Assembly (NCBI GenBank): GCA_022414725.1
Contig: CM039464.1
Span: 46,583,957 to 46,647,956, forward strand
Direction: 5' to 3'
From: Microglena sp. YARC
Lineage: Eukaryota > Chlorophyta > Chlorophyceae > Chlamydomonadales > Chlamydomonadaceae
DNA: 64,000 bases
Each line of letters begins with the position of its first letter. The first letter of the stretch is position 1. Under the pieces are notes generated by a model that saw only the letters and a list, made by a program, of their open reading frames with translations, was not told where the DNA came from and made no database searches. Positions 1-64,000 of this stretch are shown piece by piece. The translations under genes and the position numbers were made by a program.

Positions 1-1236
1 GGGTCAGAGTACTCTGATGGCACACACACCTCGTCGGACTCTTCCCTCCAGGGCGCAGATCCCGAAGGCAACCACAGCTGGGTAGCATGGGGGTGGCATG
101 GGGTGTCAAGCTTCTTCTATGGTCAAGCTGGAACCAGTGCTCCTGTTACGGGAGAGAGGGCGCCTGCCGGTGCTGCAGCAGCCGTGCCAGCGTCGCTATC
201 CTTACAAGACGTGGATGAGCTGTACCATTTGCTGGAGGAGAGAGCGCACCAGCACCAGCAGCACAGCCAGCGCCATCACCGGCGCAGTACTGATGGCTTT
301 GCCCTCGGAGACACTGAGCTAGAGTCTGCACCCGCATCAGTCAAATTGCAACTGAGTGTTGCTGACATGCACTTCTCTCTGAACTCTGACGCTGCCTCCC
401 TCGGTTGCGACCCTCGAGACCCAAGGTCAAGCTCTATATTGACACCTGATGCTGGTGCTGGTGCTGGCGCTGGAGCTAGTGCTGGTGCTGGTACTGGTGC
501 TAGTGCTGGTGCCGGTGCCGGTGCTGGTGCTGGTGCTGGTGCTGGTGCTGGTGCTGGTGCTGGTGCTGGTGCTGGTGCTGGTGCTCTCCCTGTTCGACTT
601 GCCTCAGTCCTCCTCTGCTCCTCTATTATGGACCTCTTGCTTAAGCCCAATGGGACTGGGCTGGTTGAGCTAAGTGTCAACAGCATCCAAGCTTTTGACC
701 ACTGCTCCGAGTCTGACGAGCTCCTGTCCATCATGGCGGGAGGGGCTGGGCGTCCATTGCTCAAGCTTTCCCAATCTAGCCAGACCCTCGACCGGCGTGT
801 CCGCAACCCCTCCTCCTCCGGCGTGCATCCCAGTAGCCGGACCATCAGCCATGAGAACCTGAGTCAGTCCTTGGGTCGACTACGTAGCCATCAATCTCTG
901 AATGAACGTGACATGCTCAGCTGGCATGCCGGCCCCCCCGCTACACCTGTGCCCCTCGCCAGCTCCCTCCATACGAAGTCCGTGCCCCAGGATAGGAGCT
1001 CCACTTCAGTTTTACTTTCAGAAGACAGGCTGGACATTCCTACCAAGACTGCTGTCGTGCCCTTCATCGCTCTGAAAATGTCCATACCGGGTAACTGCGC
1101 AGCCAACCCAGAGCAGTCACCTCCGAGGGCTCGAGTGTCTGTTGACGTCACTCCTATCTATTTCACTTTCCGGCCCAAGTGCCTCGCGACTGTTGAGGCT
1201 GCTTTGAAGGGAATCAAAGTGGGAAACACTCTTCAG
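1..1236 (+). CDS. VPS13: VPS13-family gene, exon e1 (5' end outside window)
   Basis: The frame is open from the first base, so coding continues from upstream. A pyrimidine-rich acceptor ending at base 51 could instead make 52 the exon start (same frame). About 412 codons. Codons ~150-196 are a Gly-Ala run built from a GGTGCT hexamer, followed by a hydrophobic stretch and a Ser-rich linker. The end, with VDVTPIYFTFRP and ATVEAALKGIKVG, looks like the beta-strand-rich middle repeats of VPS13. It ends CAG|GTGCGC in phase 0, matching e2. The family call rests mainly on later exons; alone this exon would be an anonymous low-complexity protein. Confidence 0.6.
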
Positions 1237-1600
1237 GTGCGCAGTATACTTTGATCCTATTTTGGCCTGTCTGGCTTGAAAGAGGGAAGTAGGGAAAAAG
1301 GTGTTCAGGCTGCCTTGAAGGGCATCAAAGTGGGAACCACACTGCAGGTGAGCAAACTTTGATCCTATTTTGGCCTCTTTTTCCTTTTTGGCTTTAAATA
1401 GGGAATAGGTGTTGCGGCTACCTTGAAGGGCATCAAAGTGGGAAATGCACATTCAGGTGAGCATCCTTTGATCCTATTTTGGCCTCTTTTGCCTTTTTGG
1501 CTTTAAATAGGGAATAGGTGTTGCGGCAACCTTCAAGGGCATCAAAGTGGGAACCACACTGCAGGTGAGCATACTTTGATCCTATTTGGGCCTTTTTTGC
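1199..1600 (+). repeat. Donor-type exon-edge array after e1 (period ~109 bp)
   Basis: The last ~40 bases of e1 with the donor recur three more times. CAG|GT junctions fall at 1236, 1347, 1456 and 1564. Each copy carries the AAGGGCATCAAAGTGGGA core and then GTGAGC, followed by the same intronic spacer with CTATTTTGGCC and GGCTTTAAAT. The copies have better donors (GTGAGC) than the exon's own GTGCGC. Confidence 0.85.
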
Positions 1601-2149
1601 CTTTTTGGCTTTAAATTGTCACCAAACACCACCACCACCACCACCACCACCACCACCACCACAACACAAGCTGCCCTGTTGCCAGATGCCTACCCCCCAT
1701 CCCCCCCCTCCCTCCCACACACCCTCCCACACACCCACCCACACTCACACCCACACACACACATGCGCGCGCACCCACCCCCACACACCCACCCACACAC
1801 ACCGCCCACCGCCGCCTTTCCCACACACCCAAACACTCACAAACTCCACCTCACAGACACACGCACACGCACACGCGCACGCACACGCACATTCCAAATC
1901 CTATTCATCCTCGACATCTTGTAGGAACACCAAGTACAAGCAATTTGTGGGTTGCCAGGCCGCACAGCACAGACCCTAGCAAGGTGCCACTACCTCCACT
2001 GCACGCCTCCAACACTACATCTGGATCTAAGGATGGAAGAGGTGGTGGTTCTTGCTCCTCTGGAAACTTGTGACCAGTGCGCTATAGTGCGCATGTGTCA
2101 TATTCAGGTTCAAACTCCTGAGCCTGCGAACATGTCACCAGGTGGGATT
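1601..2149 (+). repeat. Intron 1: CCA microsatellite and CA/CCCA-rich tract
   Basis: A (CCA)n run lies at about 1626-1662. A pyrimidine/CA-rich tract with CACACC and ACGCAC periodicities lies at about 1690-1890. The remainder to 2149 shows no recognisable feature. Confidence 0.8.
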
Positions 2150-2212
2150 TATATAGGGTTTAGGGATTGTAGTTTAGGGTTTAGGGCTTAGAGTTCAGGG
2201 TTTAGGGTTCGC
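2150..2212 (+). repeat. Interstitial TTTAGGG telomere-like repeats
   Basis: Several perfect and near-perfect TTTAGGG heptamers in tandem inside intron 1. This is the plant/green-algal telomere unit. Confidence 0.8.
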
Positions 2213-2344
2213 TTTTTTTGACAAACTTGATTAAGACGTTTTGACACACACATACCCTACCAAAACAATTATATTAAGATATTATGATACACGTGCATGA
2301 AGTTAGCAGGTTGCTAACAAGAAAAGGGCGATGCAACCACATGC

Positions 2345-2704
2345 ATGCAAAGCAAAGCACCAGCAGCAAGCAAAGCAAAGCAAAGCAAAGCAAGAAGCAA
2401 AGCAAAGCAAAGCAAGAAGCAAAGCAAGAAGCAAAGCAAGAAGCAAAGCAAGAAGCAAAGCAAGAAGCAAAGCAAGAAGCAAAGCAAGAAGCAAAGCAAG
2501 AAGCAAAGCAAGAAGCAAAGCAAGAAGCAAAGCAAGAAGCAAAGCAAGAAGCAAAGCAAAGCAAGAAGCAAAGCAAGAAGCAAAGCAAGAAGCAAAGCAA
2601 GAAGCAAAGCAAGAAGCAAAGCAAGAAGCAAAGCAAGAAGCAAAGCAAGAAGCAAAGCAAGAAGCAAAGCAAGAAGCAAAGCAAAGCACCAGCACCAGCA
2701 CCAG
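2345..2704 (+). repeat. 12-bp minisatellite (GCAAAGCAAGAA)
   Basis: About 30 near-identical 12-bp units, with a few AAGCA insertions that shift the register, flanked by AGCACC triplets. The unit has no stop in most frames, so long open frames on both strands (Lys-Gln-Ser-type and Leu-Cys-Phe-type) are artefacts. Confidence 0.9.
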
Positions 2705-3492: not shown

Positions 3493-6400
3493 CGGCTGAG
3501 GGCTAATGGTTCAGAGCTAGACCTCCGCCTTACAGCTGCTGATTTGGAGAGGGCTCTTCTTGAAAATCAGCCTACCCCAGCCCACCCCACCCCGCCCACC
3601 CCGCCCCAGCCCACCCCAGCCCAGCCCACCTCAGCCCACCCCACCCCAGGGGACCCTCAAGCCTTGGATGGGTTGCTAGAACTAGAGGACTACCTTCTTT
3701 ATCAGCGGTACAACGTCTCAATCGCATCTGTGCTCGTGGGCTGCTCGACGACCTGTAAAGCAGACAGTGGTGGTGGTGGTGGTGGTGGTGGTAATGGACC
3801 AAATCGTGGTGGTAGTGTTGAACCAAAACGTGGTGGTGGTGTTGTTGGACCAAATCTTGGTGCTGGTGTCGAACCAAATCATCGTGGTGGTGGTGGTGGT
3901 GGTGGAGATTCTGCTCCCAAATCCTCGGCGGCGGGGGTCAGGGCCATGCCTGCCTCTGCAAGAGAAACAGCTCCTGCTCCACCAAGAGACAAAGTCGATG
4001 ATACTCCTTTTGCCCGCTCCAAAAGCTTACCTCGCTTGGATGCCGACAGAGGGTTGATTCTCGAGGGATATCTCTCCGGCCCTGCTGCTTGTGTCGCTCG
4101 GATGCTGTGCCCCTTGCCGGCTGTTGGAGTCAGTGTGCAGACCGCCCTCAACAGAGTACCTGGTGACTCCCTGCTGGCCTCTCCCAGGATGGACGTGAAC
4201 CTGTCGGGGCTTGTGGGCCAAGTCCAGACACAGGAGCTTACTGACTTGGCCCGGATTGTGGACAGTGTCCTGTCTTCGTACCAGGCGCACAGAGAGCAAA
4301 AAGAGCCCAAAGATTGCTCTGATCTCAACCCTAGTTTCTCAAATCAGACCCACAGAGAGCAAAGACAGCCCAACTCTGGCGCTGGGATTGGCTCTGGTTC
4401 ATCACATCAGACCCACAGTGAGCCAAGGCAGTGCAAACCTGGCGCCACTGCGTATGCTACTATCGTTGAGCGCGGCTCATCATCAGCATCAGATGCTCCT
4501 GCTGTTCTACCTTGGGACAGCCATTGTACTGCCTGTACCTCTACTACCGAAGAGCTTGGCTCATCAGCAGCAACAGCAGCAGAGCAGCAGAGCGACAGGT
4601 CAGCAGCAGATGTACCTGCTGCGACACAATCGGCAGAGGGTGGTACAACAGCACCGCCAGTCGCCCCAACCCGGCATTTGGAGAGATTTACTGCGGCATC
4701 TTATGACTTCAAGCCTGAGGCTGACCTTCAGAGTTATTGTGTTACATCGCCAGACCTTGCCAAGCCCCTAAAGCTTGGAAATTTCCGAACTGCGGCATAC
4801 GGCTCCATCCCTGAAGGTGTCGAAACCAAACAATCTTTGGATACAGCAGCCACCCAGCCTTCAAACCAGCCTTCAACCCAGCCGTCCACCCCTGCCACCC
4901 AGCCTTCCACCCCCTCCACCCAGCCTTCCACCCCTTCCACCCAGCTTTCAACCCAGCCGGCCACCCCTGCCACCCAGCCTTCCACCCCCTCCACCCAGCC
5001 TTCAACCCAGCTGGCCACCCCTGCCACCCCTTCCACCCAGCCTTCCACCCCTTCCACCCAGCCTTCCACTCCTGCCAACCAGCCTGCCACCCAGTCTGCT
5101 ACCCCTTCCACCCAGCCTTCCAACCCTGCCACCCAGCCCGCAACACAGCCTTCCACCCCTGCCATCCAGCCGTCCACCCCTGCCACCCAGCCTTCAACCC
5201 CTGCCACCCAGCCTGCCACCCAGTCATGTGTGCAAGCACCTGCTACAGGAACTCCAGTGGACCATCCCCCTCCGGTTGCCAAGCCTGCCGTCCAGATTCA
5301 GGTCGTGATCGAGCCAATCAGCATCACTCTCATTCACAACCTAGTCACATATGAAGAAGGGTTGAGGCCCGAGGCACAGAGGTGGCCCCAGACAGACCCC
5401 AAGGGCTACCCCACCATCTGTTTGACCGTTGCTCTGATCACACTGGAAGCCAGCTCGCGGGCAGGCCGGGCTGTGGTCCAAGGTACATTGGGGCAAATCC
5501 GTTTGGAGAGTCAATATGCTACTGCTTCTGAGTCTGCAGGCACCTTCCTGGCTGCAGGCAAGGTATTCGCAGTTGACGTCGTCACCCTCGACTTCTCGAT
5601 GGATTCTATTAAAATCCGTGATGGTCCGCAGACAGAAGCAGGACCTGTCAGCCACAGCTCCAGCACCCCCCCTGGCAACCCGGGACCCAGCAGCCACAGC
5701 TCCAGCTATCCCCCCGGCAACTTGGGACCCAGCAGCCCCGGCCCCAGCACCCCCCCTGGCACCCCCCCCAGCCGCAACAATGGCAGCTACAGCAGCAACA
5801 GCAATAGCATGAGCAACAGCAGGTATGGCATTAACGGCAGGAAGCAGTCAGATCTGGAGAGTAGGCCAGAAGTGGCTGCAAGGTGGAGCGCATCGATGTC
5901 AATGCTTGCCCCATTTGTTGAGGGTTATGCAGATCAACAAGGGGCTTTTTTAACATCAAACAAACCTATGGTGGATGGCCATGGCTTTTCAGCTGACAGC
6001 TCTATCGCCGGCTCCATCAAATTTGGGGTTCAATGTCTTTCACCTCAGATGAACCATCCGCCCCCTTCTACCCATTCGGGTCATCCCCGCATTGCAACCG
6101 AATCAAGGATCTCAAGTGGTGGTGCTGGTGCTGGTGCTGGTGATGGTGTTGGTTCAAATCCCCCTGCCCAATCCGGGAATGATTCTTATCAACTTAATTT
6201 CTCCAAAGCTCTCCCTTGCTACGAGCTTGAGGTCCGAGCGAAGAATCTGCTTGTTGGGGCAGAGCTCATCCATTCCATCAGGACCGCCAGCAATGCAATC
6301 AGCAACAGCAATGCAATTAGCAACAGCAGCAGCAATACAAGCAACAGCAATGCAGCAGCGGGTTCTGCAGAAGGGGGGTGGGAAGGAAGCAAAAGCAGCA

Positions 6401-7466: not shown

Positions 7467-7841
7467 GTGAATGCTACCATGCTGCCCTCCCAAGCCGCCG
7501 TCATCCCTTTCCTTGTGGATGCGCTAAAGGGGCCCCAGGCACAGGATCAAGTCAACCCAGCGAAAAGAGCTCCACAAAAATCACATAGCCAGAGGATGAA
7601 ATCCCCCACTGGCTTGCGCCCGGGTCAAGCAGTACGTGTTTCTGACCCTCTGGCAGTACGGAGAAAGCAAATTGAGCAATTTGAGCGGCTCAGCAGGCTG
7701 ATGAATGTTACAGCTAGGATCGGGGAGATCTGCGTGTCGGCGACATGTGATGAAGGGGACTCAGAGACTGAGCCCTTGAATGGAGGCAACATGGCTGTGC
7801 TGAGCTGCAAGGCCATTGAGCTCAGCTTCAAGAGCAGAGAG
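7467..7841 (+). CDS. VPS13: VPS13-family gene, exon e3
   Basis: 125 codons, phase 0 at both ends (TGTACAG acceptor; GAG|GTGCGG donor). Joins e2 as EAAQ|VNATMLPSQAAVIPFL, a beta-strand plus helix pattern like the VPS13 middle region. A charged helix (VRRKQIEQFERLSRLMN) is followed by the strands ARIGEICVSATC and MAVLSCKAIELSFKSRE. An edge copy of its 3' end with a donor reappears 1.1 kb downstream (~8951-9000), which supports the exon border. Confidence 0.7.
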
Positions 7842-7930
7842 GTGCGGTGTGGCATATATGGGATGGGACGGGATGGGATGGGATGGGATGGGATGGGATG
7901 GGACGGGATGGGATGGTGTGGTATGGGTAC
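7842..7930 (+). repeat. GGGAT pentanucleotide run
   Basis: (GGGAT/GGGAC)n immediately downstream of the e3 donor. Confidence 0.85.
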
Positions 7931-8001
7931 GTAACTGTTTTTGCTGTAAATGGAGTGTACTTCATTTGGAGGGCGCAGGCGACATGGTTGCTGGGCTGGT
8001 G

Positions 8002-8930
8002 AGTCTGTGATGTACAAGCACTATGATGTTGATGTACAAGCTGTGAGTCTTTGATGTACAACCACTATGATGTTGATGTACAAGCTGTGTGTCAGTGATG
8101 TACAACCACTATGATGTTGATGTACAAGCTGTGAGTCAGTGATGTACAACCACTATGATGTTGATGTACAAGCTGTGAGTCTGTGATGTACAAGCACTAT
8201 GATGTTGATGTACAAGCTGTGAGTCTGTGATGTACAAGCACTATGATGTTGATGTACAAGCTGTGAGTCTGTGATGTACGACCACTATGATGTTGATGTA
8301 CAAGCTGTGAGTCTGTGCTGTACAACCACTATGATGTTGATGTACAAGCTGTGAGTCTGTGATGTACAACCACTATGATGTTGATGTACAAGCTGTGAGT
8401 CTGTTATGTACAACCACTATGATGTTGATGTACAGGCTGTGAGTCTGTGATGTACAAGCACTATGATGTTGATGTACAAGCTGTGAGTCTGTGATGTACA
8501 ACCACTATGATGTTGATGTACAAGCTGTGAGTCTGTGATCTACAAGCACTATGATGTTGATGTACAAGCTGTGAGTCTGTGATGTACAAGCACTATGATG
8601 TTGATGTACAAGCTGTGAGTCTGTGATGTACAAGCACTATGATGTTGATGTACAAGCTGTGAGTCTGTGATGTACAAGCACTATGATGTTGATGCACAAG
8701 CTGTGAATCTGTGATGTACAACCACTATGATGTTGATGTACAAGCTGTGAGTCTGTGATGGACAAGCACTATGATGTTGATGTTCAAGCACTATGATGGT
8801 GATGTACAAGCTGTGAGTCTGTGATGTACAAGCACTATGATGTTGATGTACAAGCTGTGAGTCTGTGATGTACAAGCACTATGATGTTGATGTACAAGCT
8901 GTGAGTCTGTGATGTACAAGCTCATGTTAG
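8002..8930 (+). repeat. 44-bp minisatellite, ~21 copies
   Basis: Units contain GTGAGTCTGTGATGTACAA then CACTATGATGTTGATGTACA, with a few substitutions. Each unit has a consensus-like GTGAGT donor motif. The first unit abuts GCTGGGCTG|GTGAGT at ~8001. Confidence 0.9.
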
Positions 8931-8943
8931 TGTATTTTGCAAA

Positions 8944-9070
8944 TTGTACTCCATTGAAGCTGCAAGGCCATTGAGCTGTGCTTCAAGAGCAGAGAGGTGT
9001 GGTATACATGGTATGGTATGGTATGGTATGGTATGGTATGGTATGGTATGGTATGGTATGGTGTGGTGTG
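8944..9070 (+). repeat. Donor-type copy of the e3 end plus GGTAT run
   Basis: Bases ~8958-9000 repeat e3's last 40 bases (GCTGCAAGGCCATTGAGCT and CTTCAAGAGCAGAGAG) and then GTGTGG. As at the true e3 end, a pentanucleotide run follows, here (GGTAT)n. Confidence 0.85.
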
Positions 9071-9088
9071 GATGTTTAAATCAAATTA

Positions 9089-9781
9089 TGCAGGAACAGG
9101 AGTCAGTCCCTCCCACAGTGCATGCCCATGTAACATTCCTCCCACTACGATCAAATGGGTTTGCGATTCTCACCGCATTTTCAATACATTTAAGCAGGAA
9201 CAGGAGCCAGTCCTTCCCTCATTGCGGGAGCATGAAACAGTCCCCCCAATAAGGTCAAGTGGTTTTGCGATTCTCAAAAAAATGTTTCAATCAATTCGCG
9301 CATGAAAAGGAGTCATGACACAGCCCTCCTAATAGTTTTGTGTATACATTTGTAATCTATTTGTGCAGGAGCAGGAGTCAGTCCCTCCCACAGTGCAGGA
9401 GCATGACACAGTCCCCCCACTACGGTCAAATGGTTTAGCGATTCTCACAGCATTTTTTATAAATGAATGCAGGAACAGGAGTCAGTCCTTCCCACAGTGC
9501 ATGCCCATGAAACAGTCCCCCCAATATGGTCAATTGTTTTGCGATTCTCACCGCAATTGTAATCAATTTGTGCAAGAACAGGAGTCAGCCCTTCCCACAT
9601 TGCAGGAGCATGACACAGTCCCCCCAATACGGTCAATTGTTTTGCGATTCTCACCGCATTTTTAATAAATATATGCATGAACAGGAGTCAGTCCTTCCCA
9701 CAGTGCATGCCCATGACACAGTACCCCCAATATGGTCAACTGTTTTGCGATTCTCGCCGCATTTTTAATACATGTATGCAG
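9089..9781 (+). repeat. Acceptor-type exon-edge array before e4 (period ~103 bp)
   Basis: Seven or so units begin TGCAGGAACAGGAGTCAGTC, the first bases of e4 with its acceptor. They continue TTCCCACAGTGCATG, then GGTCAA-TG-TTTTGCGATTCTCAC. One unit near 9300 is degenerate. The last unit runs straight into e4. Confidence 0.85.
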
Positions 9782-10449
9782 GAACAGGAGCCAGTCCTTC
9801 CCACAGTGCATGAGCATGACTCAGTCAGTCCAGTGAGGTCAGGTGCATCCCAGGACTCAACCCCTCCTAGGATGCCAAGCGCTCCCCCTGGAGAATCCAC
9901 GTACGCTAGCAGAAACTCCACGTTCGCTGGCGGAGAGTCCGCGCACGCTGGCGGAAACTCCACGTTCACTGGCGGAGCGTCCGCGCACGCTGGCGGAAAC
10001 TCCACTCACGCTAGCAGAACGAAAGAGACCTGGGAACACTCTTCTGAGGCCGGGGGCATAGATCCCGAGTCCTCCCACTCCCATGCCAGAGAGTGTGAGA
10101 TTGAGGTAGGACTCCAGTGGAGGGAGATGAGCTGCAGCTTGCTGCAAAATGTGCAGATGGTGATGGGGCCCTCTCCTGGTAGCACTGAGCCCCAAACCCC
10201 AGCATGTCCTCCCGGAGCGGCTGATCCCAGGCTCGGACTGGGTCCAGGCCATACAGGGGTGGCAGTATCGCTTAGTGTCAACCCCATATCAGGGCGGAAG
10301 ATTCACTCACCCTCACTGCCTCTGTTCTGCCCCCCCCCCACTTGCCCCCGCCCCTGCCCGTACCCCTGCCCCTGCCCCCGCCACAAAGGCTAGGAGCCCA
10401 AGCACCTTTGAAGATTTAAGCCGACTCAGCAGCATGGAGCCCTCTGGGG
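9782..10449 (+). CDS. VPS13: VPS13-family gene, exon e4 (frame break at C-run)
   Basis: Phase-0 start after TGCAG (9781). Reads EQEPVLPTVHEHDSVSPV, then a Gly/Ala/Ser repeat from a 15-21-bp duplication at 9895-10015, then ECEIEVGLQWREMSCSLLQN and GVAVSLSVNPISG. The frame then has to shift once within ~10316-10380 to give KARSPSTFEDLSRLSS and the donor GGGG|GTGAGT (10449, phase 1). A 9-10 base C-run at ~10329 is the likeliest place for a sequencing or real indel. The gene call comes from continuity with neighbours. Confidence 0.55.
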
Positions 10450-10691: not shown

Positions 10692-10844
10692 GGTCATTTC
10701 ACCGGGATGAGATGGCATCTGGCTCAACCCCCCTGGGGATGTCCCCCACCCTTGGGGGTAGCTACATGGAGGCCCCTCTAGGATCCTTTTTCAGTGTCCA
10801 ATCAGCTTCGTTCGGAGGGCGCAGGGGACAAGGTGTAATGGGTG
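10692..10844 (+). CDS. VPS13: VPS13-family gene, exon e5
   Basis: 51 codons, phase 1 in and phase 1 out. Reads GSFHRDEMASGSTPLG then SYMEAPLGSFFSVQSASFGG, ending at the strong donor GTGAGT (10845). The last ~45 bases resemble sequences at ~7948-8008 and ~10925-10966. A low-complexity linker; no domain of its own recognised. Confidence 0.5.
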
Positions 10845-11404
10845 GTGAGTATGTGGGGCACACTGTGGTTACTGGTGTATTTTACTGCGGTGTACTGTGG
10901 TTGTGTGAATGGAGTGTGCAAAGTGGACTTCATTTGGGCGGCGCAGGGGGCAAGGTGTAATGAGTGGTGAGTCTTGCCTCTCCCTCTCACAGGCTCCCCG
11001 CAGAGGCACACCAACCAAACTAAACCCTGAACCCTGAACCCGAAAACCCTCTCCTTGCCTCTCCCTCTCACAGACTCCCCGCTGAGGCACACCAACCAAA
11101 GTAAACCCTAAACCCTAAAACCCTAAACCCTAAAACCCTCTCCTTGCCTCTCCCTCTCACAGGCTCCCTGCAGCGGCACACCAACCAAAGTAACCCTAAA
11201 ACCTAAACCCTACAACCCTCTCCTTGCCTCTCCCTCTCACAGGCTCCCCGCAGAGGCACACCAACCTAACTAACCCCTAACCCCTAAAACCCTAAAACCC
11301 TCTCCTTGCCTCTCCCTCTCACAGGCTCCCCGCAGAGGCACACCAACCTAACTAAACCCTAAACCCTAAACCCTAAACCTTCTCCTTGCCTCTCCCTCTC
11401 ACAG
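10845..11404 (+). repeat. Acceptor-type array before e6 with telomere-like heptamers (period ~82 bp)
   Basis: CTCTCACAG acceptors followed by the e6 start GCTCCCCGCAGAGGCA end at 10992, 11073, 11162, 11242, 11324 and 11404 (real). The spacer in each unit is CACACCAACC then CCCTAAA-type heptamers, then CTTGCCTCTCCC. A partial copy of the e5 end precedes the array at ~10925-10966. Confidence 0.85.
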
Positions 11405-11764
11405 GCTCCCCGCAGAGGCAAACGTCCTCCCCTCAGCAGCTCCTCTCCGCGCTCAACCCACCCTCTTCCCAGATCCACCCACTGTTAACAAAATCTCCAA
11501 ACACCAAGGCCTCATCATTCCAAGTGCACCGAATGCCTCCGATCAGCAGAGCCAGCCCCAAGGCCCCCCAACGGCCCCCCTCGTCCAAGGTGGCCCCGGT
11601 CGACAGCCGCCAGCTATTTCTTCAAAAAGGGAATAACAACACGACCAGTGGCAGTGGCGCGCTGTACAGTAGCTATAGGGCGACAGAGACGGCACCAGGC
11701 TGCACCTCTGGTGGCTTGGGCATGCATGCGATCATGGACTTGGGAAGGAGCTCTATACCTCCAG
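11405..11764 (+). CDS. VPS13: VPS13-family gene, exon e6
   Basis: 120 codons, phase 1 in and out. Gln/Ser/Pro-rich start (SPQRQTSSPQQLLSALNPP), then VAPVDSRQLFLQKG and LGMHAIMDLGRSSIPPG at the donor CCAG|GTGTGT. Three edge copies of LGMHA-MDLGRSS follow downstream, which confirms the 3' border. Mostly a disordered linker; no domain recognised. Confidence 0.6.
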
Positions 11765-45330: not shown

Positions 45331-45334
45331 TGTG

Positions 45335-48860: not shown

Positions 48861-48964
48861 TGTGGGTTTTTTTGTTTTTTGTGGTTGCAGCAACGGAATG
48901 GCAATGTGTTGTCGGGGGGAAAGTGTCTATAAACGGTCTATAAACGGTTTAAACCTGTGGTGAT

Positions 48965-52170: not shown

Positions 52171-53224
52171 CCACTCACCCACACCACGCCCACCACCACA
52201 TGCAACACACAGGTGCAGGAAGACAACTGCTTAGCTCCGGCGTCCTTTCCAGTTGTGATCTGCACTGCCAACCTCACTGACACCTCTCCTGTCCTCTTCC
52301 CCGACCACAACCACCACCACCACCCCACCTACCGACCCACCCACCCACCCCCACCACGCCCACCACCACATTTCAACACACAGGTGCAGGTAGACAACTG
52401 CTTAGCTTCGGCGTCCTTTCCAGTTGTGATCTGCACTGCCTACCTCACTGACGCCTCTCTCCTGCCCACCACCACCACCACCACCCGCACCACCCACCTA
52501 CCGACCCACCCACTCACCCACACCACGCCCACCACACATTCAACACACAGGTGCAGGTAGACAACTGCTTAGCTGCGGCGTCCTTTCCAGTCGTAATCTG
52601 CACTGCCAACCTCACTGACACCTCTCCTGCCCACCACCACCACCACCACCCGCACCACCCCACCTACTGACCCACCCACTCACCCACACCACGCCCACCA
52701 CCACATTCAACACACAGGTGCAGGTAGACAACTGCTTAGCTTCGGCGTCCTTTCCAGTCGTAATCTGCACTGCCAACCTCACTGACACCTCTCCTGCCCA
52801 CCACCACCACCACCACCACCACCCGCACCACCCCACCTACTGACCCACCCACTCACCCACACCACGCCCACCACCACATTCAACACACAGGTGCAGGTAG
52901 ACAACTGCTTAGCTTCGGCGTCCTTTCCAGTTGTGATCTGCACTGCCTACCTCACTGACGCCTCTCCTGCCCACAACCACCACCACCACCCGCACCACCC
53001 CACCTACCGACCCACCCTCTCACCCACACCACGCCCACCACCACATTCAACACACAGGTGCAGGTAGACAACTGCTTAGCTGCGGCGTCCTTTCCAGTCG
53101 TAATCTACACTGCCAACCTCACTGACACCTCTCCTGCCCACCACCACCACCACCACCCGCACCACCCCACCTACTGACCCACCCACTCACCCACACCACG
53201 CCCACCACCACATTCAACACACAG
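52171..53224 (+). repeat. Acceptor-type array before e27 (period ~167-173 bp, seven acceptors)
   Basis: CAACACACAG|GTGCAGGTAGAC with the first ~55-90 bases of e27 and a CCACCACCACC/CACCCACACCACGCC spacer. Junctions end at 52212, 52383, 52550, 52717, 52890, 53057 and 53224 (real). Confidence 0.92.
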
Positions 53225-54216
53225 GTGCAGGTAGACAACTGCTTAGCTTCGGCGTCCTTTCCAGTCGTAATCTGCAGCCCTGTATCTCGCTCCATGTTCA
53301 ACATTGCTGTAATGGTGTACCCTGGTGGCAGCTTCGGCCAGCTGCCCCTTAATAGGATGGGTGCTGGAGATATCACCCCCCCTGCTGTGGGCTGGGCCCC
53401 CACGGTTGTGGGAGATGCTGAGCAAGGCTCGCATGCCAGCAGCTACGAAGAAGCTGCCCTGAAGCTGCAGAAGCTGCAAGAAGCTGTAGATGCCAGCAGC
53501 TGCCAAGAAGCTGCCCTGAAGCTGCAGAAGCTGCAAGAAGCTGAGGATGCAGTGGCAATGGCTCCAACCCTGTACCCTGTGAAGGATCCTCGCCTCCCGG
53601 AGGCCGTCACGGTGCAGTGCTGTGTGTGGCGGAGCAGACGTGGGGGAGTGCTGTGCGTGCAACATATGTCCGTTGAAGCCGCGCCACTTGCGGTTTGTGT
53701 GGAAGAAGCCTACTTGCACCGAATTGCAGCGTTTGCTATGTCCTCTTTGGCGACTGCCTCAGGGAAGGGCACGAAGGCTGGTAAGAGCCGGCGGCATGGT
53801 AAAGCCTCTGGTGTTATGGAGGGAAGAGGAAGGAGGTCGCAAGTGGCTTCACATGAACCCAACACTAGCTTGATCTCTGGGGCTGTACCCCTGGAGCATG
53901 TTCTTCTCCGCCCTAAAGTATACATCGAGCGAATGGTTTTCTCAGCCATTCGACTTGCCGTCAGCTTTGCTCCCAGCACAGCGGGGCCCCTGGAGGCAGC
54001 CCAGTGGTTGAAGGGCGAGGGGGGCATGCATGCGCAAGCTAGTCATTTCAAAGCAGCGCAGACGGTGAAGGGAAGAGCAAGCAGCGGTGTGCTGCGCACG
54101 CTGCTCTCATTAGCTCATGTTGAGAGCGCTTGGGTCCAGCTTCGCGGCCTGGAGCTGCGTCACCCCCTCATGGGCCATGATGCCCTGGCTCAAGTGATTG
54201 GCTGGCATTATGTCAG
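53225..54216 (+). CDS. VPS13: VPS13-family gene, exon e27
   Basis: 330 codons, phase 0 in, phase 2 out (TGTCAG|GTATGA). Starts VQVDNCLASASFPVVICS, the V-D-N-x-L-x-x-x-x-F-P-V-(V/L) block of VPS13. After a linker comes a 21-residue unit duplicated in tandem (ASS-EEAALKLQKLQEA, coiled-coil-like, codons ~75-115). Then AVTVQCCVWRSRRGGVLCVQ, LEHVLLRPKVYIERMVFS and VQLRGLELRHPLMGHDALAQ. The last block is the conserved stretch before the C-terminal VPS13 domain. Six copies of this last ~110 bases follow. Confidence 0.9.
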
Positions 54217-55106
54217 GTATGATTTTTATGGATCGGCTAAAACTCATGATACAACTCATGTTACAACTCATGTTAAAAATCTCATTAGCTCACGTTGAGA
54301 GCACTTGGGTCCAGCTTCGCGGCCTGGAGCTGCGTCACCCCCAAATGGGCCATGATGCCCTGGCTCAAGTGATTGGCTGGCATTATGTCAGGTATGATTT
54401 TTACGGATGGCTAAAACTCATGTTACAACTCATGTTAAAAATCTCATTAGCTCACGTTGAGAGCGCTTGGGTCCAGCTTCGCGGCCTGGAGCTGCGTCAC
54501 CCCCTCATGGGCCATGATGCCCTGGCTCAAGTGATTGGCTGGCATTATGTCAGGTATTATTTTTACGGATGGCTAAAACTCATGTTACAACTCATGTTAA
54601 AAATCTCATTAGCCTATGTGGAGAGCGCTTGGGTCCAGCTTCGCGGCCTGGAGCTGCGTCACCCCCTCATGGGCCATGATGCCCTGGCTCAAGTGATTGA
54701 CTGGCATTATGTCAGGTATGATTTTTACGGATGGCTAAAACTCATGTTACAACTCATGTTAAAAATCTTATTAGCCTATGTGGAGAGCGCTTGGGTCCAG
54801 CTTCGCGGCCTGGAGCTACGTCATCCTCTCATGGGCAATGATGCCCTAGCACAAGTGATTGGCTGGCATTACGTCAGGTTTGTTTTTAATGGATATCTAA
54901 AACTTATGCTACATCTCATGTTAAAAACCTCATTAGCCTATGTGGAGAGCGCTTGGGTCCAGCTTCGCGGCTTGGAGCTGCGCCACCCTCTCATGGGCCA
55001 CAATGCACTAGCTCAAGAGATCGGCTGCCATTACGTCAAGCATGTTTTTTACGGATGGCTAAAAGCTATGTTTCAACTCGTGTTACAACTCATGTCCAAA
55101 CCTTAG
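54217..55106 (+). repeat. Donor-type array after e27, open in one frame (period ~162 bp)
   Basis: TATGTCAG|GTATGATTTTTA junctions at 54216, 54391, 54553, 54715 and 54877 (weakened), and a mutated one near 55040 (CAAG|CATG). Each unit repeats GAGAGCGCTTGGGTCCAGC through GGCTGGCATTATGTCAG plus a TACGGATGGCTAAAACTCATG spacer. Four periods are 162-163 bp, so a ~300-codon frame spans the array. Confidence 0.92.
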
Positions 55107-55560: not shown

Positions 55561-56618
55561 CTGTCATCCACCCCCCGCCCCACATCCCACGCTCCATGCC
55601 AAACACCACACATCACACATCCCAAGTTCCACATCACACGTCACACGTCACACGTTCCTCATCCCCCACCTCCTACCCCCCGCCCCTTCCCACCCACCCA
55701 CCCACCCCAATCCGTCCCCCATCCCCATCCCCATCCCCACACCCCCACACCCCCCACCCCACCCCCACACACACACACCCATCCCGCCCCCCACTCTCCA
55801 GTGCTGTATTGGGTGAGCTCCTCAAGGTGGTCGGCTCTCTTGACATCTTCGGTCATGCTGTCCGCCTGGTTCAGACACCCACACACACCCCTCACACACA
55901 CACATCCACAACCCCGCACCCACCCACACACACACCTATCCCACACCCACAACCCCACAACCCCACACCCACAATCCCACAACCCCACACCCACACACCC
56001 ACAAACTCACACACCTATCCCACACCCACACACCCACAACCCCCCACCCACAATCCCACAACCCCCCCCACACACACACGCAAACTCACACACCTATCCC
56101 ACACACACACACCCACAGCCCCACACCCACAGCCCCACACCCACACACCCACAAACTCACACACCTATCCCACACCCTCACACCCACCACCCCACACCCA
56201 CAATCCCACAACCCCACACCCACCCATCCCACACCCACACACCCATCCGGCCCCCCACCCTCCAGTGCTGCTTTGGGTGAGCTCCTCAAGGTAGTCGGCT
56301 CTCTTGGCATCTTCACTGACGCTGTCCGCCTGGTTCAGACACCCGCACACACACCCCTCACACACCCACGTCCACAACCCCACACCCACACACCCACTCA
56401 CCCACACACCTATCCCACACCCACACACCCACAACCCCACACCCACTCACCCACACACCTATCCCACACCCACACACCCACACACCTATCCCACACCCAC
56501 ACACCCACAACCCCACACCCACAAACTCACACACCTATCCCACACCCACACACCCACAACCCCACACCCACACAACCACAACCACACATACACACCCATC
56601 CCGCCCCTCACGCTCCAG
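55561..56618 (+). repeat. CACACCC array with acceptor-type copies of the e28 start
   Basis: Two upstream copies of (T)CCAG|TGCTG then TGGGTGAGCTCCTCAAGG and the next ~60 bases of e28, with acceptors ending at 55801 and 56265. They are separated by CCCACACCCACAACCCC repeats. The real acceptor is at 56618. Spacings are 464 and 353 bp. Confidence 0.9.
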
Positions 56619-56799
56619 TGCTGCTTTGGGTGAGCTCCTCAAGGTGGTCGGCTCTCTTGACATCTTTGCTGACGCTGTCCGCCTGGTTCAGGGCCTTGGC
56701 TTGGGCGTGTGGAAGCTGCTGGCTACTCCCGCCCATGCCGCACTTCATGGCTCCGTGTTCAAATTCTTTGCGGGCCTCGTAGGAGGGATCTCTGGAATG
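56619..56799 (+). CDS. VPS13: VPS13-family gene, exon e28 (C-terminal VPS13 domain)
   Basis: Phase 2 in (gives Ser with e27), phase 0 out (GGAATG|GTGCGT). Reads SAALGELLKVVGSLDIFADA, VRLVQGLGLGVWKLLATP, then FKFFAGLVGGISGM. VGSLD-(I/L)-(F/L)-x-x-x-V-x-L, then G-V-x-x-(L/F), then G-L-x-G-(I/T)-x-G matches the C-terminal VPS13 (ATG2-C-like) domain. If the donor were not used, the frame would stop at 56823, leaving a truncated protein; downstream matching exons argue against that. Confidence 0.9.
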
Positions 56800-56939: not shown

Positions 56940-57205
56940 GAGGGTTCAGTTCATCAGTTTTTTTTTTTTTAAGCCCTTCCTACTACGGTTGGTAAGTCCC
57001 TTTAGCCTATTTGACCTACCCCTGGACTGATACATACATACATACATACATACATACATACATACATACATGCATACATGAGGGGGAGGAGGAGGGGGAG
57101 GATGGTGGTGGTGGTGGTGTGTGTGGTGGTGGTGGTGGTAGGGGGGGGTGATGAAGATGAGGAGGAGGATGGTGGGGGTTATGATGATAATGCATGTACA
57201 CCTGC
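56940..57205 (+). mobile_element. SINE-like element A, sense, with (CATA)n tail
   Basis: AGGGTTCAGTTCATCAG, poly-T, AAGCCCTTCCTACTACGG, TTGGTAAGTCCCTTTAGCC and GACCTACCCCTGGACTGA, then (TACA)n at ~57030-57080. The best full-length sense copy in the window. A GGTGGTG/GGAGGAGGA tract follows to ~57180. Confidence 0.75.
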
Positions 57206-57329: not shown

Positions 57330-57615
57330 GGCATTGGCCGGTACCCCAAGTCTGAGGCAGCTTTTAGCTGTCTTACACGGGCAACCCGCTGCTAACACCC
57401 AAGTGGCTCGTCCCGGTTCTGCGAGTGGTTCAATGGTTGATCATTTTGCTGGACTGAAGAAGGTGCTGGGTTCGAGCCCCTACGGGTGTGCTTCAGCGTT
57501 CTCGGTCTTTGTCAACCGCCATGGTAGCACTGCCTAAGTAAAGTAGCAGCCCATTCTCTACCGCCGAAAGACAGGGCTCCCTTAATACCACGCCCCACCA
57601 GGCTTTATCATCAAT
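57330..57615 (+). mobile_element. SINE-like element B with tRNA-type promoter boxes
   Basis: TGGTTCAATGG (57427-57437) fits box A and GGTTCGAGCC (57469-57478) fits box B, about 40 bases apart as in tRNA genes. The T-arm and acceptor stems do not pair properly, so this is not a functional tRNA. The body then reads GTCAACCGCCATGGTAGC, CTCTACCGCCGAAAGACAGG and AATACCACGCCCCACCAGGC, shared with 49420-49620 and 63204-63416. Confidence 0.75.
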
Positions 57616-59900: not shown

Positions 59901-60500
59901 ATGGGTCTGAGTTCAAACCCTGTCACACTCCTTGATTTCCATGGATATCGCACGGGGGGAAGTATTGCACTCCGCAGACGGTTCAACGCTATATTGCCGG
60001 TGTATGGAACCGTGTAACGATTAACCTGCTATCCTCAAGATGGCACAAGTAGCTGCAAGACTTTGAGGGGCCATATCTCTACGGCAGCCTGCACCTGTTC
60101 AGCTTGCTAAACAGGCGTTCAGGTTGTTAACAGGTGTTCATGGTGTTAATCACCTGTTCAACAACAGCATGTTTAAACAATGATGTACATAAACAGGTGC
60201 TCAACACCCTGTACACCTCTTTAGCAACCAGAGCACCTGTTTAACAACCTAAACATCTGTTTAACAACCTGAACAGCTTAACAGAGCCAAGATGGACTTA
60301 TGAACATCATGCAAACAAAAACAAGTATATATAATCATCCCTCTGATGCCCAATCCCTAAACCCTAAACCCTAAACCCTAAACCCTAAACCCTAAAAAGA
60401 TAGAATCATCCCCCTGATGCTGAATCCTTCCTCCAGCAGTACATCAGCCATTGTTTCGTCGTTGGGGCTATTCGTAGCAGCTTCCACCCAGCTCCATTAG
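59901..60500 (+). repeat. Intron 28 end: CCTGTTNAACAACC repeats and CCCTAAA run
   Basis: Bases 60085-60280 hold many direct and inverted CACCTGTTTAACAACC/GGTTGTTAACAGGTG words. Bases 60354-60398 are six tandem CCCTAAA heptamers. GCAGCTTCCACCCAGCTCC leads to the acceptor CATTAG. Confidence 0.75.
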
Positions 60501-60744
60501 CAAGCGACTGATTCAAGCCCACAAATGACCGCAGCATTGGAACGTTCCCTACATGTTACTGCTGGTCAACCAACACTTATTCTTTTTAACATGATGCAGA
60601 TCCATAGCACCGCCTTTGCGACTAGCAACTCGCTTGCAAAGGGGACCAGGCGAGCTAGAGCCACGCTTCTAGCTTTGTGCACGGATGAAGTGGCAGACGC
60701 TATTCTGAGACCCCCGCTGTCTCATGCCCAGTCTCACTTCTCAG
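60501..60744 (+). CDS. VPS13: VPS13-family gene, exon e29
   Basis: Phase 0 in if the acceptor CTCCATTAG (60500) is used; phase 1 out (TCTCAG|GTACCT). A TAG in frame just upstream limits how early it can start. Reads QATDSSPQMTAALERSLHVT, then FNMMQIHSTAFATSNSLAKG and TRRARATLLALCTDEVADAI. The S-N-S-L-A-K-x-T-R pattern resembles the helical part of the VPS13 C-terminal domain. The 3' edge is copied at ~60922-60973. Confidence 0.7.
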
Positions 60745-61129
60745 GTACCTTGTTTGTTGAAATGTTATCTTACTTCTCAGTTACGCGTCACTTTTTCATG
60801 TTTTCATATTTGTGGGTGGGGTGTGGGGTGGGGGTGGGTGGGGGTGGGGGGTGTGGCTGTGGGGGGTGGGGTGGGGTGGGGGGTGGGGGGGGGGGAGGGG
60901 GGGGGGCACAGACATATTGGTCGCCGCTGTCCTGAGACCCCCACTGTCTCACCCTCAATCTCATCAGGTACCTGTTACGCCTTGCCACGGGGCGTGAAAC
61001 TGAATGAATGGAACTGAATGAAGCTTCCCATTCGGTGGCACTGTAGAATGGTTACTGTGGGTTTTGATTTTGCAGACCACTACTGCGCCTTAGCTCGGAG
61101 TACAAGTGATCTGTATGATTCCCACTCAA
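60745..61129 (+). repeat. Intron 29 start: GGTGGGG tract and donor-type copy of the e29 end
   Basis: G-rich 60810-60905. CCTGAGACCCCCACTGTCTCA and CTCATCAG|GTACC at ~60928-60967 copy the e29 border. Then unremarkable sequence. Confidence 0.8.
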
Positions 61130-62056
61130 AAGAGTGGTCTGCAAATCAATTCATAAGTTACTAAGTCTCCCAACACCCCGGCCCCGGCCCCCTCTCCGCC
61201 CCACCCTCAGCCACAGCCACCATGAAGCCATCTATGTACTATCATCATGGATCTGCCCAAGCCACTCAAAACAGTGGTCTGCAAATCAATTCATAAGTTA
61301 CTTAGTCTCCCAACACCCCTGCCCCGGCCCCTTCTCCGCCCCACCCTCATCCACAGCCACCATGAAGCCATCTATGTACTATCATCATGGATCTGCCCAA
61401 GCCACTCAAAATAGTAGTCTGCAAATTAATTCATAAGTTACTTAGTCTCCCAACACCCCTGCCCCGGCCCCTTCTCCGACCCACCCTTAGCTACAGGCAC
61501 TGTCAAGCCATCTATGTATCATCACTCCGGACCTGCCCAAGCCACTCAAAACAATGGTCTGCGAATGAATCAATAAGTTACCAAGTCTCCCAAAACCCCT
61601 GCCCCGGCCCCTTCTCCGTCCCACCCTCAGCCACAGGTACCAAGAAGCCATCTATGTATCATCACTCCGGATCTGCCCAAGCCACTCAAAACAATGGTCT
61701 GTGAATGAATCAATAAGTTACCAAGTCTCCCAACACCCCTGCCCCGGCCCCTTCTCCGTCCCACCCTCAGCCACAGGTACCATGAAGCCATCTATGTATC
61801 ATCACTCCGAATCTGCCCAAGCCACTCAAAACAATGGTCTGTGAATGAATCAATAAGTTACCAAGTCTCCCAACACCCCTGCCCCGGCCCCTTCTCCGTC
61901 CCACCCTCAGCCACAGGTACCATGAAGCCATCTATGTATCATCACTCCGAATCTGCCCAAGCCACTCAAAACAATGGTCTGTGAATAAATCAATAAGTTA
62001 CCAAGTCTATCAACACCCCTGCCTCGGCCCCTTCTCCGCCCCACCCTAAGCCACAG
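61130..62056 (+). repeat. Acceptor-type array before e30, exact 140-bp period
   Basis: Acceptors GCCACAG (or GCTACAG) end at 61216, 61356, 61496, 61636, 61776, 61916 and 62056 (real), each exactly 140 bases apart. Units contain the first ~60 bases of e30 (GAAGCCATCTATGTATCATC, then CTGCCCAAGCCACTCAA) and a spacer with TCTGCAAATCAATTCATAAG and CCTGCCCCGGCCCCTTC. Confidence 0.95.
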
Positions 62057-62376
62057 GCTCTGCCAAGCCATCTATGTATCATCATCCGAGATCTACCCAA
62101 GCCACTCAACCGCCTGCAGCCTATGCCAGACCCCCACTCCTCCTCTCTGACCCATATGGGGTCGCTAACGGTGGCGGGGAGCCAAGCCGCCACGCAACCC
62201 AGGAGCACAGCTCTGGTTCAGAACAGCCTCACCGATATTCCTTGCAGCACCAGCAGCGACGAGATGTGCTACATGTGCTGGGCTCTGGCTACAGTGCACT
62301 GCTGGGCAGGCTGGGCCGCGAGGCTGTGTCTGTGAATGTGTCAAAAGAACTGCTGAACGGCTGCCTGCAAGCAGCG
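62057..62376 (+). CDS. VPS13: VPS13-family gene, exon e30
   Basis: Phase 1 in, phase 0 out (GCAGCG|GTGGGT). Reads SAKPSMYHHPRSTQATQPP, then ARPPLLLSDPYGVANGGG, YSLQHQQRRDVLHVLGSGYS, ALLGRLGREAVSVNVSKELL and NGCLQAA. RPP-(R/L)-x-x-x-x-D, then Y-S-L--Q-x-x-x-x-(D/E)-(M/V)-L, is the arrangement near the end of VPS13 proteins, before the final PH-like part. Two copies of the last ~110 bases with donors follow. Confidence 0.8.
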
Positions 62377-62880
62377 GTGGGTATGCTTACCTCGTGGCTT
62401 GTGTGTGTGTGTGTTTATGTGTGTGCCTCACAGTCCATGGCCTATTTGGGTACCCCTGGACTGTAACATACATACATACATACATACATACATACATACA
62501 TACATACATACATACATACATACATACACACATACATACATACATACATACACACATACATACACACAGTCCATGGGATATGCTGCATGTGCTGGGCTCT
62601 GGGTACTGTGCGCTGCTGGGCAGGCTGGGCCGCGAGGCTGTGTCTGTAAATGTGGCAAAAGAACTGCTGAACGGCTGCCTGCAAGCAGCGGTGGGTATAC
62701 TTGCCTCGTGGCTTGTGTGTGTGTTTATGTGTGTGCCTCACAGTCCATGGGATGTTCTGCATGTGCTGGGCTCTAGGTACTTTGCGGTAGTGGGCAGGCT
62801 GGGCTGGGAGGCTGTGTCTGTAATTGTGGCAAACGAATTGCTGAACGGCTGCATGCAAGCAGCGGTGTTTATTCTTGCCT
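62377..62880 (+). repeat. Donor-type copies of the e30 end, with CATA microsatellite
   Basis: Copies of GATGTGCTACATGTGCTGGG to AAGCAGCG|GTG end at 62690 and 62864. The second keeps the reading LGSRYFAVVGRLGWEAVS. The first spacer holds an element-A tail, CCTATTTGGGTACCCCTGG + ACTGTAACATACATAC, with (CATA)n at 62466-62570. Confidence 0.9.
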
Positions 62881-63203
62881 CATGACTTGTGTGTTTATGT
62901 GTGTTTGTCAATGTCTATGGGCAGCCAGTTTATATTTTGTCTACACTTTTTCCTACAAAAACAAACCTCCTGTTGCGCCTATATGGGCGATGGTGGTGGT
63001 GGCGGCGGTGGTGATGGTTGTGGTGGCGAGGGTGGCGGCTGTGTTGGTGGTGGTGGTGGCAGTGGTGATGCCGTTGATCTGTATGTAACAATCTTGAGAT
63101 ACTGTATGCCTGGGTACTACATGACACACGCTGTTGCTATTGCGCACTGGGCACTGCGCACTGGGCACATGACACGCGCTATTGAGACACAAGACATGCG
63201 CAC
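62881..63203 (+). other. Intron 30 middle: GGTGGC tract and GCGCACTGGGCAC words
   Basis: GGTGGTGGCGG at 62990-63072, then short repeats of GCACTGGGCAC and ACACGCGCTATTGAGACAC that resume after the element-B insertion. Confidence 0.6.
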
Positions 63204-63416
63204 CAAAAAGGTAATGATAACGCCTGGTGGGGCGTGGTGTTAAGGGAGCCCGTTGTACGCGGGTGGGGAGCGGTCTCCTACCTCAACTGGACAAGCTACC
63301 ATCGCGGTTGACGACAACCTGCAACGCCAAGAGCGACCGAAGGGGGAGTCCCCCGACTCTTCATCCTCAAGCGATCTGGTCTACCATTTGACCATGGTAT
63401 ATCACTGAAAGGGGCT
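63204..63416 (-). mobile_element. SINE-like element B, antisense, with 11-bp flanking repeats
   Basis: AATGATAACGCCTGGTGGGG, CGTGGTGTTAAGGGAGCCC, ACAAGCTACCATCGCGGTTG. Near the other end, GGTCTACCATTTGACCA holds a box-A-like sequence on the - strand. GACATGCGCAC flanks it exactly at 63193-63203 and 63417-63427. Confidence 0.75.
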
Positions 63417-63427
63417 GACATGCGCAC

Positions 63428-63640
63428 AAGACACTAGGCACGCGCTATTGAGACACTAGACACGCGCACTGGGCACATGACGCGCTATTGCGCGCTAGAA
63501 CACAAGGTTTTGGAGCCCGACTGCGCGATAGATTTTGTAAACGCCCTCTGGGCGCTGAGCACAGATTTCTATTTTCAGTCAAAAGCGCAACCCAAAAGGA
63601 GGCATTTGCATCAAAAGCGCAACCCAAAATGACAAAATGT
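63428..63640 (+). other. CGCGC-rich words and a duplicated AAAAGCGCAACCCAAAA
   Basis: ACACGCGC/GCGCTATTG words continue from before the element-B insertion. AAAAGCGCAACCCAAAA occurs twice at ~63581-63630. No exon seen. Confidence 0.5.
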
Positions 63641-64000
63641 AGTACCCTGCTGTATGCACACTGCTGCATTGAACTGTTTTAAAACACAACTGGGCTACAG
63701 GCCATGCCAGTGATAGTGTTCATTGAACTGTTTTAAACATGACTCTATTACAGGCCGTGCCAGTTATCGTGCTTATGAAAGGTTTTTTTAATCAAATTTG
63801 GCTACAAGCCATGCCAGTTATTGTGCTCATCGAATTGTTTTAAAACAAACCTCTGTTACAGGCCATGCCAGTGATTGTGCCATTTGACTGTTTTTAACAC
63901 AACTCTGTCACAGATTTACAGGCCATGCCAGTGATCGTGCTCATTGAACTGTTTTAAACACTCCTCTATTACAGGCCATGCCAGTTATCGTGCTATTGAA
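63641..64000 (+). repeat. Acceptor-type array of the next exon (period ~53-60 bp), cut by window end
   Basis: (C/T)TACAG|GCCATGCCAGT then (T/G)ATCGTGCTCATTGAA and CTGTTTTAAACAC. Acceptors end near 63700, 63753, 63861, 63921 and 63974; one unit has CAAG instead (~63807). In phase 0 after e30 the start would read AMPVIVLIE. Whether 63975 begins the real exon or another copy cannot be told from the window. Confidence 0.85.

Follow-up and report, generated by a model that had tools for sequence, protein, structure and literature searches.

The tandem repeats in the introns of a large VPS13-family gene of the green alga Microglena sp. YARC are to a considerable extent copies of the exon-intron borders that flank them, and the same state looks genome-wide as far as three unrelated gene sets were sampled. 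The window, i.e. the whole 64,000-nucleotide stretch of DNA that was analysed, spans positions 46,583,957-46,647,956 (+ strand) of one contig (CM039464.1) of a 568-Mb assembly with 2,390 contigs, and carries exons of this single + strand gene. When chaperonin and kinesin genes of the same genome are added to it, 55 of 79 introns hold at least one extra copy of a segment that runs across their own splice border, and the two ends of the intron are involved alike (40 of 79 donors, 42 of 79 acceptors). Such repeats have been named 'mirages' in amphioxus, and the reading that we favor, with a probability of roughly 0.6, is that we are looking at mirage minisatellites on a genome-wide scale, produced by ordinary local tandem duplication and minisatellite growth and tolerated at splice borders.

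Border copies in the VPS13-family gene

The identity of the gene follows from its joined exons: exons 21-28 (1,099 amino acids) match the Pfam VPS13_VAB domain (E=6.9e-17, residues 385-546) and exons 21-26 match the solved Vps13 structure 7u8t (E=6.6e-7), while a Pfam scan of seven single open frames from the window gave no match and protein searches with single exons gave none for one exon and one 35% match for another. The gene model was obtained independently of an earlier sequence-only reading of the window, using a hidden Markov model (HMM) of codons and splice sites curated by reading frame and by the VPS13_VAB match, and comprises 31 exons and 30 introns, exon 31 extending past the window end. 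It is a computational model, in which the acceptor of intron 1 and the borders of introns 2, 5, 14, 17-19 and 28 are less certain, and the version used for the family and coverage tests described below had the end of exon 23 and the start of exon 25 one base off.

Each border, taken as up to 250 bp of exon plus 60 bp of intron, was locally aligned to its own intron, and a copy was counted if the alignment spanned the border with at least 8 bp of exon and at least 4 bp of intron. By this criterion 20 of the 30 introns hold extra border-crossing copies, with 18 of the 30 donors and 13 of the 30 acceptors involved; the sequence-only reading had reported own-border copies in about two thirds of the introns, at 18 donor-type and 13 acceptor-type borders, and its totals are reproduced by the independent model. 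A stricter ungapped test (12+12 bp, at least 19 of 24 positions matching) retained 13/30 donors and 13/30 acceptors, and an ungapped 20+12 bp test on a slightly different model 9/30 and 11/30, respectively. The neighbouring copy lies 80-232 bp away in 26 of 31 cases, and the copies include 10-150 bp of exon. Four calls are weak, with a best score below 30 (D11, A14, D26 and D29), and those for A22 and D13 are supported by just 11-20 bp of exon. The clearest donor arrays follow exons 1, 8, 16, 20, 24, 27 and 30, and the clearest acceptor arrays precede exons 5, 7, 9, 11, 25, 27 and 30. By Tandem Repeats Finder (TRF), 67% of the window's intron sequence is tandem repeat, and 56% is so at a period of at least 20.

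Spread beyond one gene

The phenomenon had been put forward as a property of one gene; we find border copies in all three gene sets sampled, in 12 of 23 well-defined chaperonin introns and in 23 of 26 well-defined kinesin introns elsewhere in the genome. Raising the alignment score threshold to at least 30 leaves 53 of the 79 introns positive, and 35% of all sampled intron bases lie within tandem families that contain their own intron's border. When borders were compared with introns of other gene sets as a mismatch control, hits were obtained for 2 donors and for no acceptor (237 of each), which excludes both chance similarity and the spreading of one repeat family among introns, and bears out the earlier statement that an unrelated sequence is involved at each border, i.e. 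that many local duplications occurred.

The sample consists of the window and these two gene families, and the scoring of junctions was our own. Exons were mapped with the profiles PF00118 (chaperonins) and PF00225 (kinesins) on several large contigs, junctions were set by adjacent profile coordinates, phase and splice scores, and the introns came from 10 genomic intervals for the chaperonins and 20 for the kinesins. Left out were 3 of 26 chaperonin introns with a poor junction score (two of these three positive), three chaperonin exon pairs without a junction together with pairs showing unmatched profile gaps, 9 of 35 kinesin introns (six of these nine positive), and the loci L017, L018, L042 and L044. 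The kinesin exon pairs, some of which are paralogues, were hand-picked among 128 matches for near-adjacent profile coordinates. The kinesin search itself, in which additional partial matches flank real exons, illustrates the pattern: the match at C2:15919754 (profile 191-296) is followed by matches at 15920133 (251-296) and 15920320 (243-296). The kinesin profile also matches two or three times consecutively at exon edges in L025 (C1:145291615-145292182), L022 and L041.

Nature of the copies

The copies are arranged head to tail in direct orientation. An inverted border copy was detected at 1 of 79 donors and at 0 of 79 acceptors, and none of the 79 introns contains its own junction in spliced, exon-exon form, the sole window match to a spliced junction (junction 21) being located at the acceptor end of intron 21 itself, an intron of AGGT type to which we return below. 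Of the routes suggested by the sequence-only reading, an origin from splice products or reverse transcripts is thus not supported, given copies in which exon and intron are contiguous, the scarcity of inverted copies and the even involvement of donors and acceptors, and retro-copying is rejected on the lack of spliced exon-exon copies inside their own introns.

Border families are moderately diverged, with a median best identity of 89.4% and 100% identity in 1 of 77 families. The splice dinucleotide is mostly kept in the window copies (GT in 44 of 47 donor copies, AG in 39 of 42 acceptor copies; lost in 6 of 89), and it is kept above neighbouring positions when copies are compared with the real border; a comparison from copy to copy shows no GT/AG peak. 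The place of the border within the unit is broadly distributed (mean 0.47, standard deviation 0.24), and a single family out of 77, that in intron 21, covers both borders.

The lengths of border units modulo 3 are distributed as 11/10/10 in the window and 33/25/20 over the 79 introns (p=0.19), so that no clear frame constraint is apparent. In the window, by comparison, the period is divisible by three in 15 of 21 exonic arrays versus 25 of 95 intronic arrays (period at least 4; Fisher p=2e-4). Duplication is therefore general; exons sieve it by frame, a filter that border copies for the most part evade, as expected if they are spliced out; the border copies show no clear sign of translation. 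The outer sites keep the Pfam profile without gain or loss of residues in 43 of 49 chaperonin and kinesin junctions, a figure that is partly so by construction, since the choice of junctions penalised deviation and ill-fitting junctions were dropped. The coding exons of the window are themselves rich in minisatellites, for instance at 446-585, 3574-3648, 4866-5200 and 24552-24698.

A proposed route to border copies

In the mechanism that we propose, local tandem duplication would double segments of ~80-230 bp by replication slippage, by fill-in of staggered breaks or by unequal exchange, and a segment that happens to overlap an exon edge would yield extra copies with a splice site but only a partial exon. 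The intact exon would retain the last acceptor on one side and the outermost donor on the other, so that normal mRNA could be made and the copies removed together with the intron, and exon definition would be expected to skip the inner half-exons, each of which would have no partner site. Border duplications might accordingly be nearly neutral, and those inside exons would mainly be kept when in frame; the array could then expand, contract and drift like any minisatellite, thereby lengthening the intron, and the duplications would have fallen on introns shorter than those of today. Tolerance of this sort would also account for the equal involvement of both intron ends, for the little weight that frame carries, and for families with both borders being as rare as the one in 77 found, because a unit holding both borders and the intron between them would add an exon.

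Are splice borders special?

Without correction, borders hardly stand out from intron interiors. In the window, 0.60 of real donors and 0.43 of real acceptors test positive; random intron points taken as pseudo-borders do so at 0.39-0.53 (donor-like) and 0.40-0.58 (acceptor-like), and in an ungapped version of the test borders reach 0.43 versus 0.66 of intron positions. These raw tests carry no correction for copy number, and their random-point baseline is inflated because of high-copy arrays; hence each unit was counted once, in collapsed coordinates, whereupon border coverage amounts to 0.49 [0.41-0.58] versus 0.15 [0.12-0.18] for the interior, a ratio of 3.4 [2.6-4.2]. The ratio is 2.9 [2.3-3.6] with dispersed repeats partly masked, the masking having been built from sampled introns only. 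A placement test on TRF arrays alone (18 donors versus 5.2 expected) was discarded, as TRF misses arrays that are found by alignment.

The comparison of repeat units and exon edges with random placement, which the sequence-only reading had named as a check, was carried out on the three gene sets, and overlap exceeds the blind expectation in collapsed introns. Several of the resulting figures weigh against a purely passive origin of the copies. Out of 120 non-simple families, 77 span a border, as opposed to 34.8 expected from blind placement in the present collapsed introns and to 57.3 expected if introns measured 280 bp (P about 1e-4). Blind placement fits the total, and the excess is gone, if introns were ~175 bp long when duplicated, yet among the 12 introns that are free of families the five shortest measure 270-343 bp. 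The excess rises with collapsed intron length (ratio 1.65 to 5.7); in collapsed introns longer than 1200 bp it amounts to 10 versus 1.7 expected, and the place of the border within the unit is slightly non-uniform (Kolmogorov-Smirnov p=0.04 for the three sets, p=0.03 for the window). Part of the border excess is thereby left unexplained. Against the 280-bp expectation the excess differs by set (window, 27 versus 18.8, P=0.005; chaperonins, 16 versus 13.8, P=0.26; kinesins, 34 versus 24.8, P=0.003). The fraction of families that span a border also rises with unit length, from 8/22 at 20-60 bp through 12/26 at 60-90 bp and 19/28 at 90-120 bp to 18/19 at 120-160 bp and 18/23 at 160-300 bp, a rise that geometry predicts. 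There is, then, a real statistical excess at borders, which stems mostly, perhaps not wholly, from geometry. As to the earlier claim that a process acts at splice borders, the excess over the interior stands, and a mutation process centred on splice sites is unproven, given that the excess shrinks under shorter introns and vanishes near 175 bp.

Weighing the alternatives

A DNA-level form of the idea put forward in the sequence-only reading is that splice borders are mutational hotspots, where damage linked to transcription or splicing, positioned nucleosomes or some property of the border sequence raises the rate of duplication. The threefold collapsed coverage, which survives partial masking, and the surplus in long introns speak for it, as does the persistence of the excess among families whose best identity reaches 90% or more (33 of 45 span a border, versus 16.2 expected in collapsed and 24.4 in 280-bp introns, P=0.0036), and for Chlamydomonas and Volvox a higher density of tandem repeats has been described close to intron-exon junctions, as far as the excerpts of that account go (PMC3887541). 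The subsets of higher identity and lower copy number count against it: at an identity of at least 94%, 12 of 20 families span a border, versus 7.4 in collapsed introns (P=0.017) and 9.8 in 280-bp introns (P=0.21), and two-copy families show a weak excess over 280-bp placement (26/52 versus 20.2, P=0.05; 12.8 in collapsed introns) that disappears at 90% identity or more (5/10 versus 4.8). The border moreover has no fixed place in the unit, and in raw coverage borders do not rise above intron interiors. We therefore regard a hotspot as doubtful. Its boldest form, namely that splice borders are duplication hotspots across the genome, with mirages at about half of the exon edges and in 70% of the sampled introns, some threefold over the interior, and that introns grow inward from their own splice sites via a process coupled to transcription or splicing, or to chromatin at exons, can be advanced only tentatively.

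The other explanations fare worse. Selection might keep the copies for use as backup or decoy splice sites or as alternative exons, and the retention of GT and AG above neighbouring positions would suit this idea; however, the absence of a GT/AG peak between copies means that the signal may stem from how the copies were found, there is no significant bias in the frame of the unit lengths and the splice site has been lost in some copies, all of which makes selection improbable. Introns might instead have been born by tandem duplication of AGGT-containing exon segments (the Rogers model), the arrays being remnants of that event. Intron 21 (44422-44763; the structure as a whole 44407-44778) has exactly such an organization: the junction of exon end and intron start and that of intron end and exon start are mutual copies around AG|GT, with 20 of 24 central bases alike around its two junctions and a local score of 23, compared with 14 for the next best of the 79 introns and a median of 6. 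Judged by its sequence, this intron seems to have arisen when an exon segment containing AGGT was duplicated in tandem. The hallmark of that model, in which the intron start equals the next exon start and the exon end equals the intron end, is nevertheless found in intron 21 only, i.e. in 1 of 79 introns, and mirage copies are oppositely arranged (exon end plus intron start, or intron end plus exon start, repeated), so that intron birth is a most unlikely source of the arrays in general. Finally, the computational nature of the gene model leaves some room for an assembly or heterozygosity artefact or for false exons. The sequence-only reading had named extra copies that prove to be assembly artefacts as an outcome that would undo its proposal; copies about 10% apart, nearly always non-identical, are not assembly doubles, and assembly doubling is rejected on this divergence. 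In the other genes, which lie on several large contigs, conserved profiles fixed the borders, and the mismatch control is near zero, which reduces an artefact to a negligible prospect. Tolerated local duplication is consequently the explanation that we retain.

The arrays of the window and other repeats

All arrays are given on the + strand of the window. On the donor side, the real edge of exon 1 is followed by 3 copies of a ~108-bp unit with an exon part of 46 bp (1191-1616), and exon 4 by a single copy 1155 bp downstream (7803-9056; border 8996; exon part 39 bp), with a 44-bp interior array in between. Single copies also follow exon 6 (10806-10972, at 122 bp) and exon 12 (30935-31132, at 123 bp, exon part 51 bp), and two are listed for exon 7 (11717-12495, exon part 53 bp). 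Exon 8 has 4 copies of a ~155-bp unit (13951-14777, exon part 52 bp); the nearest copy after exon 10 lies at 147 bp (27493-28334, exon part 37 bp), and a weak one after exon 11 at 85 bp with a score of 20 (29448-29559). The minisatellite after exon 13 (31470-33716) has units of 49-62 bp with exon parts of 11-20 bp. Larger arrays follow exon 16 (35611-36083; 3 copies, unit ~141 bp, exon part 49 bp, GT lost at 35800), exon 20 (40955-41942; 5 copies, unit 159 bp, exon part 111-126 bp, with a further degenerate copy at 42058), exon 24 (48599-48894; 2 copies, unit 96 bp, exon part up to 60 bp) and exon 27 (54105-55095; 5 copies, unit 162 bp, exon part 100-112 bp, the final copy, at 55039, having lost GT). 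Exon 22 is copied once (44853-45094; border 45067, exon part 24 bp), exon 23 in one diverged copy 658 bp away (45889-46754; border near 46695, GT kept, exon part ~150 bp), exon 26 weakly (51656-51884, exon part 10 bp) and exon 29 weakly in a single diverged copy (60698-60973), and the array after exon 30 (62263-62921) has 2 copies, 314 and 174 bp apart, with an exon part of 118 bp and GT lost at 62868.

On the acceptor side, six copies of a ~103-bp unit precede exon 5 (9075-9845; exon part up to 64 bp, AG lost at 9678 and 9575), five of a ~80-bp unit exon 7 (10973-11423; exon part 19 bp) and four of an 85-bp unit exon 9 (23862-24416; exon part 66 bp), and single copies lie 232 bp from exon 8 (13455-13850, exon part 132 bp) and 286 bp from exon 26 (50896-51254, exon part 50 bp). 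Exon 11 is preceded by 3 copies of a 146-bp unit (28455-29054; exon part up to 117 bp, AG lost at 28492); these copies also bear a donor-like site, GTAACA/GTAGCA, on their 3' side and could serve as complete cassette exons, the HMM having taken some of them for exons. A weak copy precedes exon 15 (34474-34610; 105 bp, exon part 10 bp), copies with borders at 45302, 45563 and 45633 precede exon 23 (45276-45831, exon part 12-13 bp), and copies with borders at 55801 and 56265 precede exon 28 (55742-56691, exon part 73 bp). The remaining arrays stand before exon 25, which starts at 50208 (49846-50299; 2 copies, unit 151 bp, exon part ~92 bp), exon 27 (52067-53276; 6 copies, unit 167 bp, exon part 52 bp), exon 30 (61122-62109; 6 copies, unit 140 bp, exon part 53 bp) and exon 31 (63662-64000; unit ~108 bp, exon part 23-26 bp inside the window).

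Repeats of other kinds are found in the window. Most of intron 8 is an 8.6-kb array (15251-23873) of a 21-bp unit in ~409 copies with 94% matches, clear of the exon borders. A dispersed element occurs at 49420-49590, 57456-57611 (reverse) and 63211-63312, its window copies being 77-86% alike and matching 5 sampled sources; by eye it has the look of a tRNA-type B box around 57440-57480, and it is possibly a short interspersed element (SINE). A second dispersed element, at 26477-26561, 37240-37345, 37541-37604, 45326-45500 and 56962-57043, is 77-83% alike between copies, partly carries (CATA)n tails and matches up to 9 sampled sources. Interstitial TTTAGGG/CCCTAAA-like (Arabidopsis-type) stretches lie within introns at 2154-2209, 34205-34300, 35820-35984 and 60355-60400. 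Together with the matches of a kinesin exon from this genome they point to a chlorophyte: among the matches listed, at least 120, the first with a species name are from Tetraselmis (59%) and Dunaliella salina (57%), and one EukProt gene model is 100% identical across the exon.

Relation to known systems and implications

Introner elements likewise change introns en masse across a genome, as a single sequence family that many introns share; in the present case every intron repeats a border of its own, unrelated to the others. The sequence-only reading knew of no named system of this kind, but tandem duplications across the exon-intron boundary were already called mirages in the amphioxus genes Adh3, the globins BflGb6 and BflGb9, TnC and PGBD5, where, in the excerpts of these reports, they affect 5' or 3' boundaries with units of 10-160 bp, carry AG or GT in many copies and reportedly leave splicing undisturbed (PMC3087553, PMC3902484). 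The units that span the boundary, the involvement of both intron ends and the presence of AG or GT in many though not all copies are common to the two systems. Mirages were described there in single cephalochordate genes, whereas here they occur in most sampled introns of a green alga, in three gene sets, with units that reach several hundred bp and with a quantified excess over the intron interior.

Related phenomena are described, again in excerpts, for the creation of introns by boundary-crossing or AGGT duplication in the Hellsten ATP2A1 and potato RdRp cases (PMC4974935). There as here a boundary-crossing duplication supplies splice signals, and intron 21 fits the AGGT form; the other 78 introns, unlike those cases, bear no birth mark, and it is existing introns that were lengthened. 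Human segmental duplications, too, are reported to have internal tandem repeats at exon-intron boundaries which splicing can remove, in few recent paralogues and 27 intron modifications as opposed to a genome-wide state, so far as that source's excerpts reach (PMC2812944). For Chlamydomonas and Volvox, tandem repeats are densest in introns and nearer junctions, an account which in its excerpted parts counts repeats near junctions without describing units that include the exon edge (PMC3887541). We found no report of mirages at a genome-wide scale or in algae in the open-licence literature, judged mostly by listing.

These findings have practical as well as conceptual consequences. Gene prediction and six-frame searching will mistake intronic copies of exon edges for exons, as our own HMM and kinesin search did. 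The genome also offers a test bed for the choice of the spliceosome among near-identical sites and for exon versus intron definition, as well as for intron birth by AGGT duplication, as in intron 21, and for the question of whether local duplication is triggered by splicing or transcription. Intron lengthening is usually attributed to transposons; in this genome, border copying may be a main route by which introns grow.

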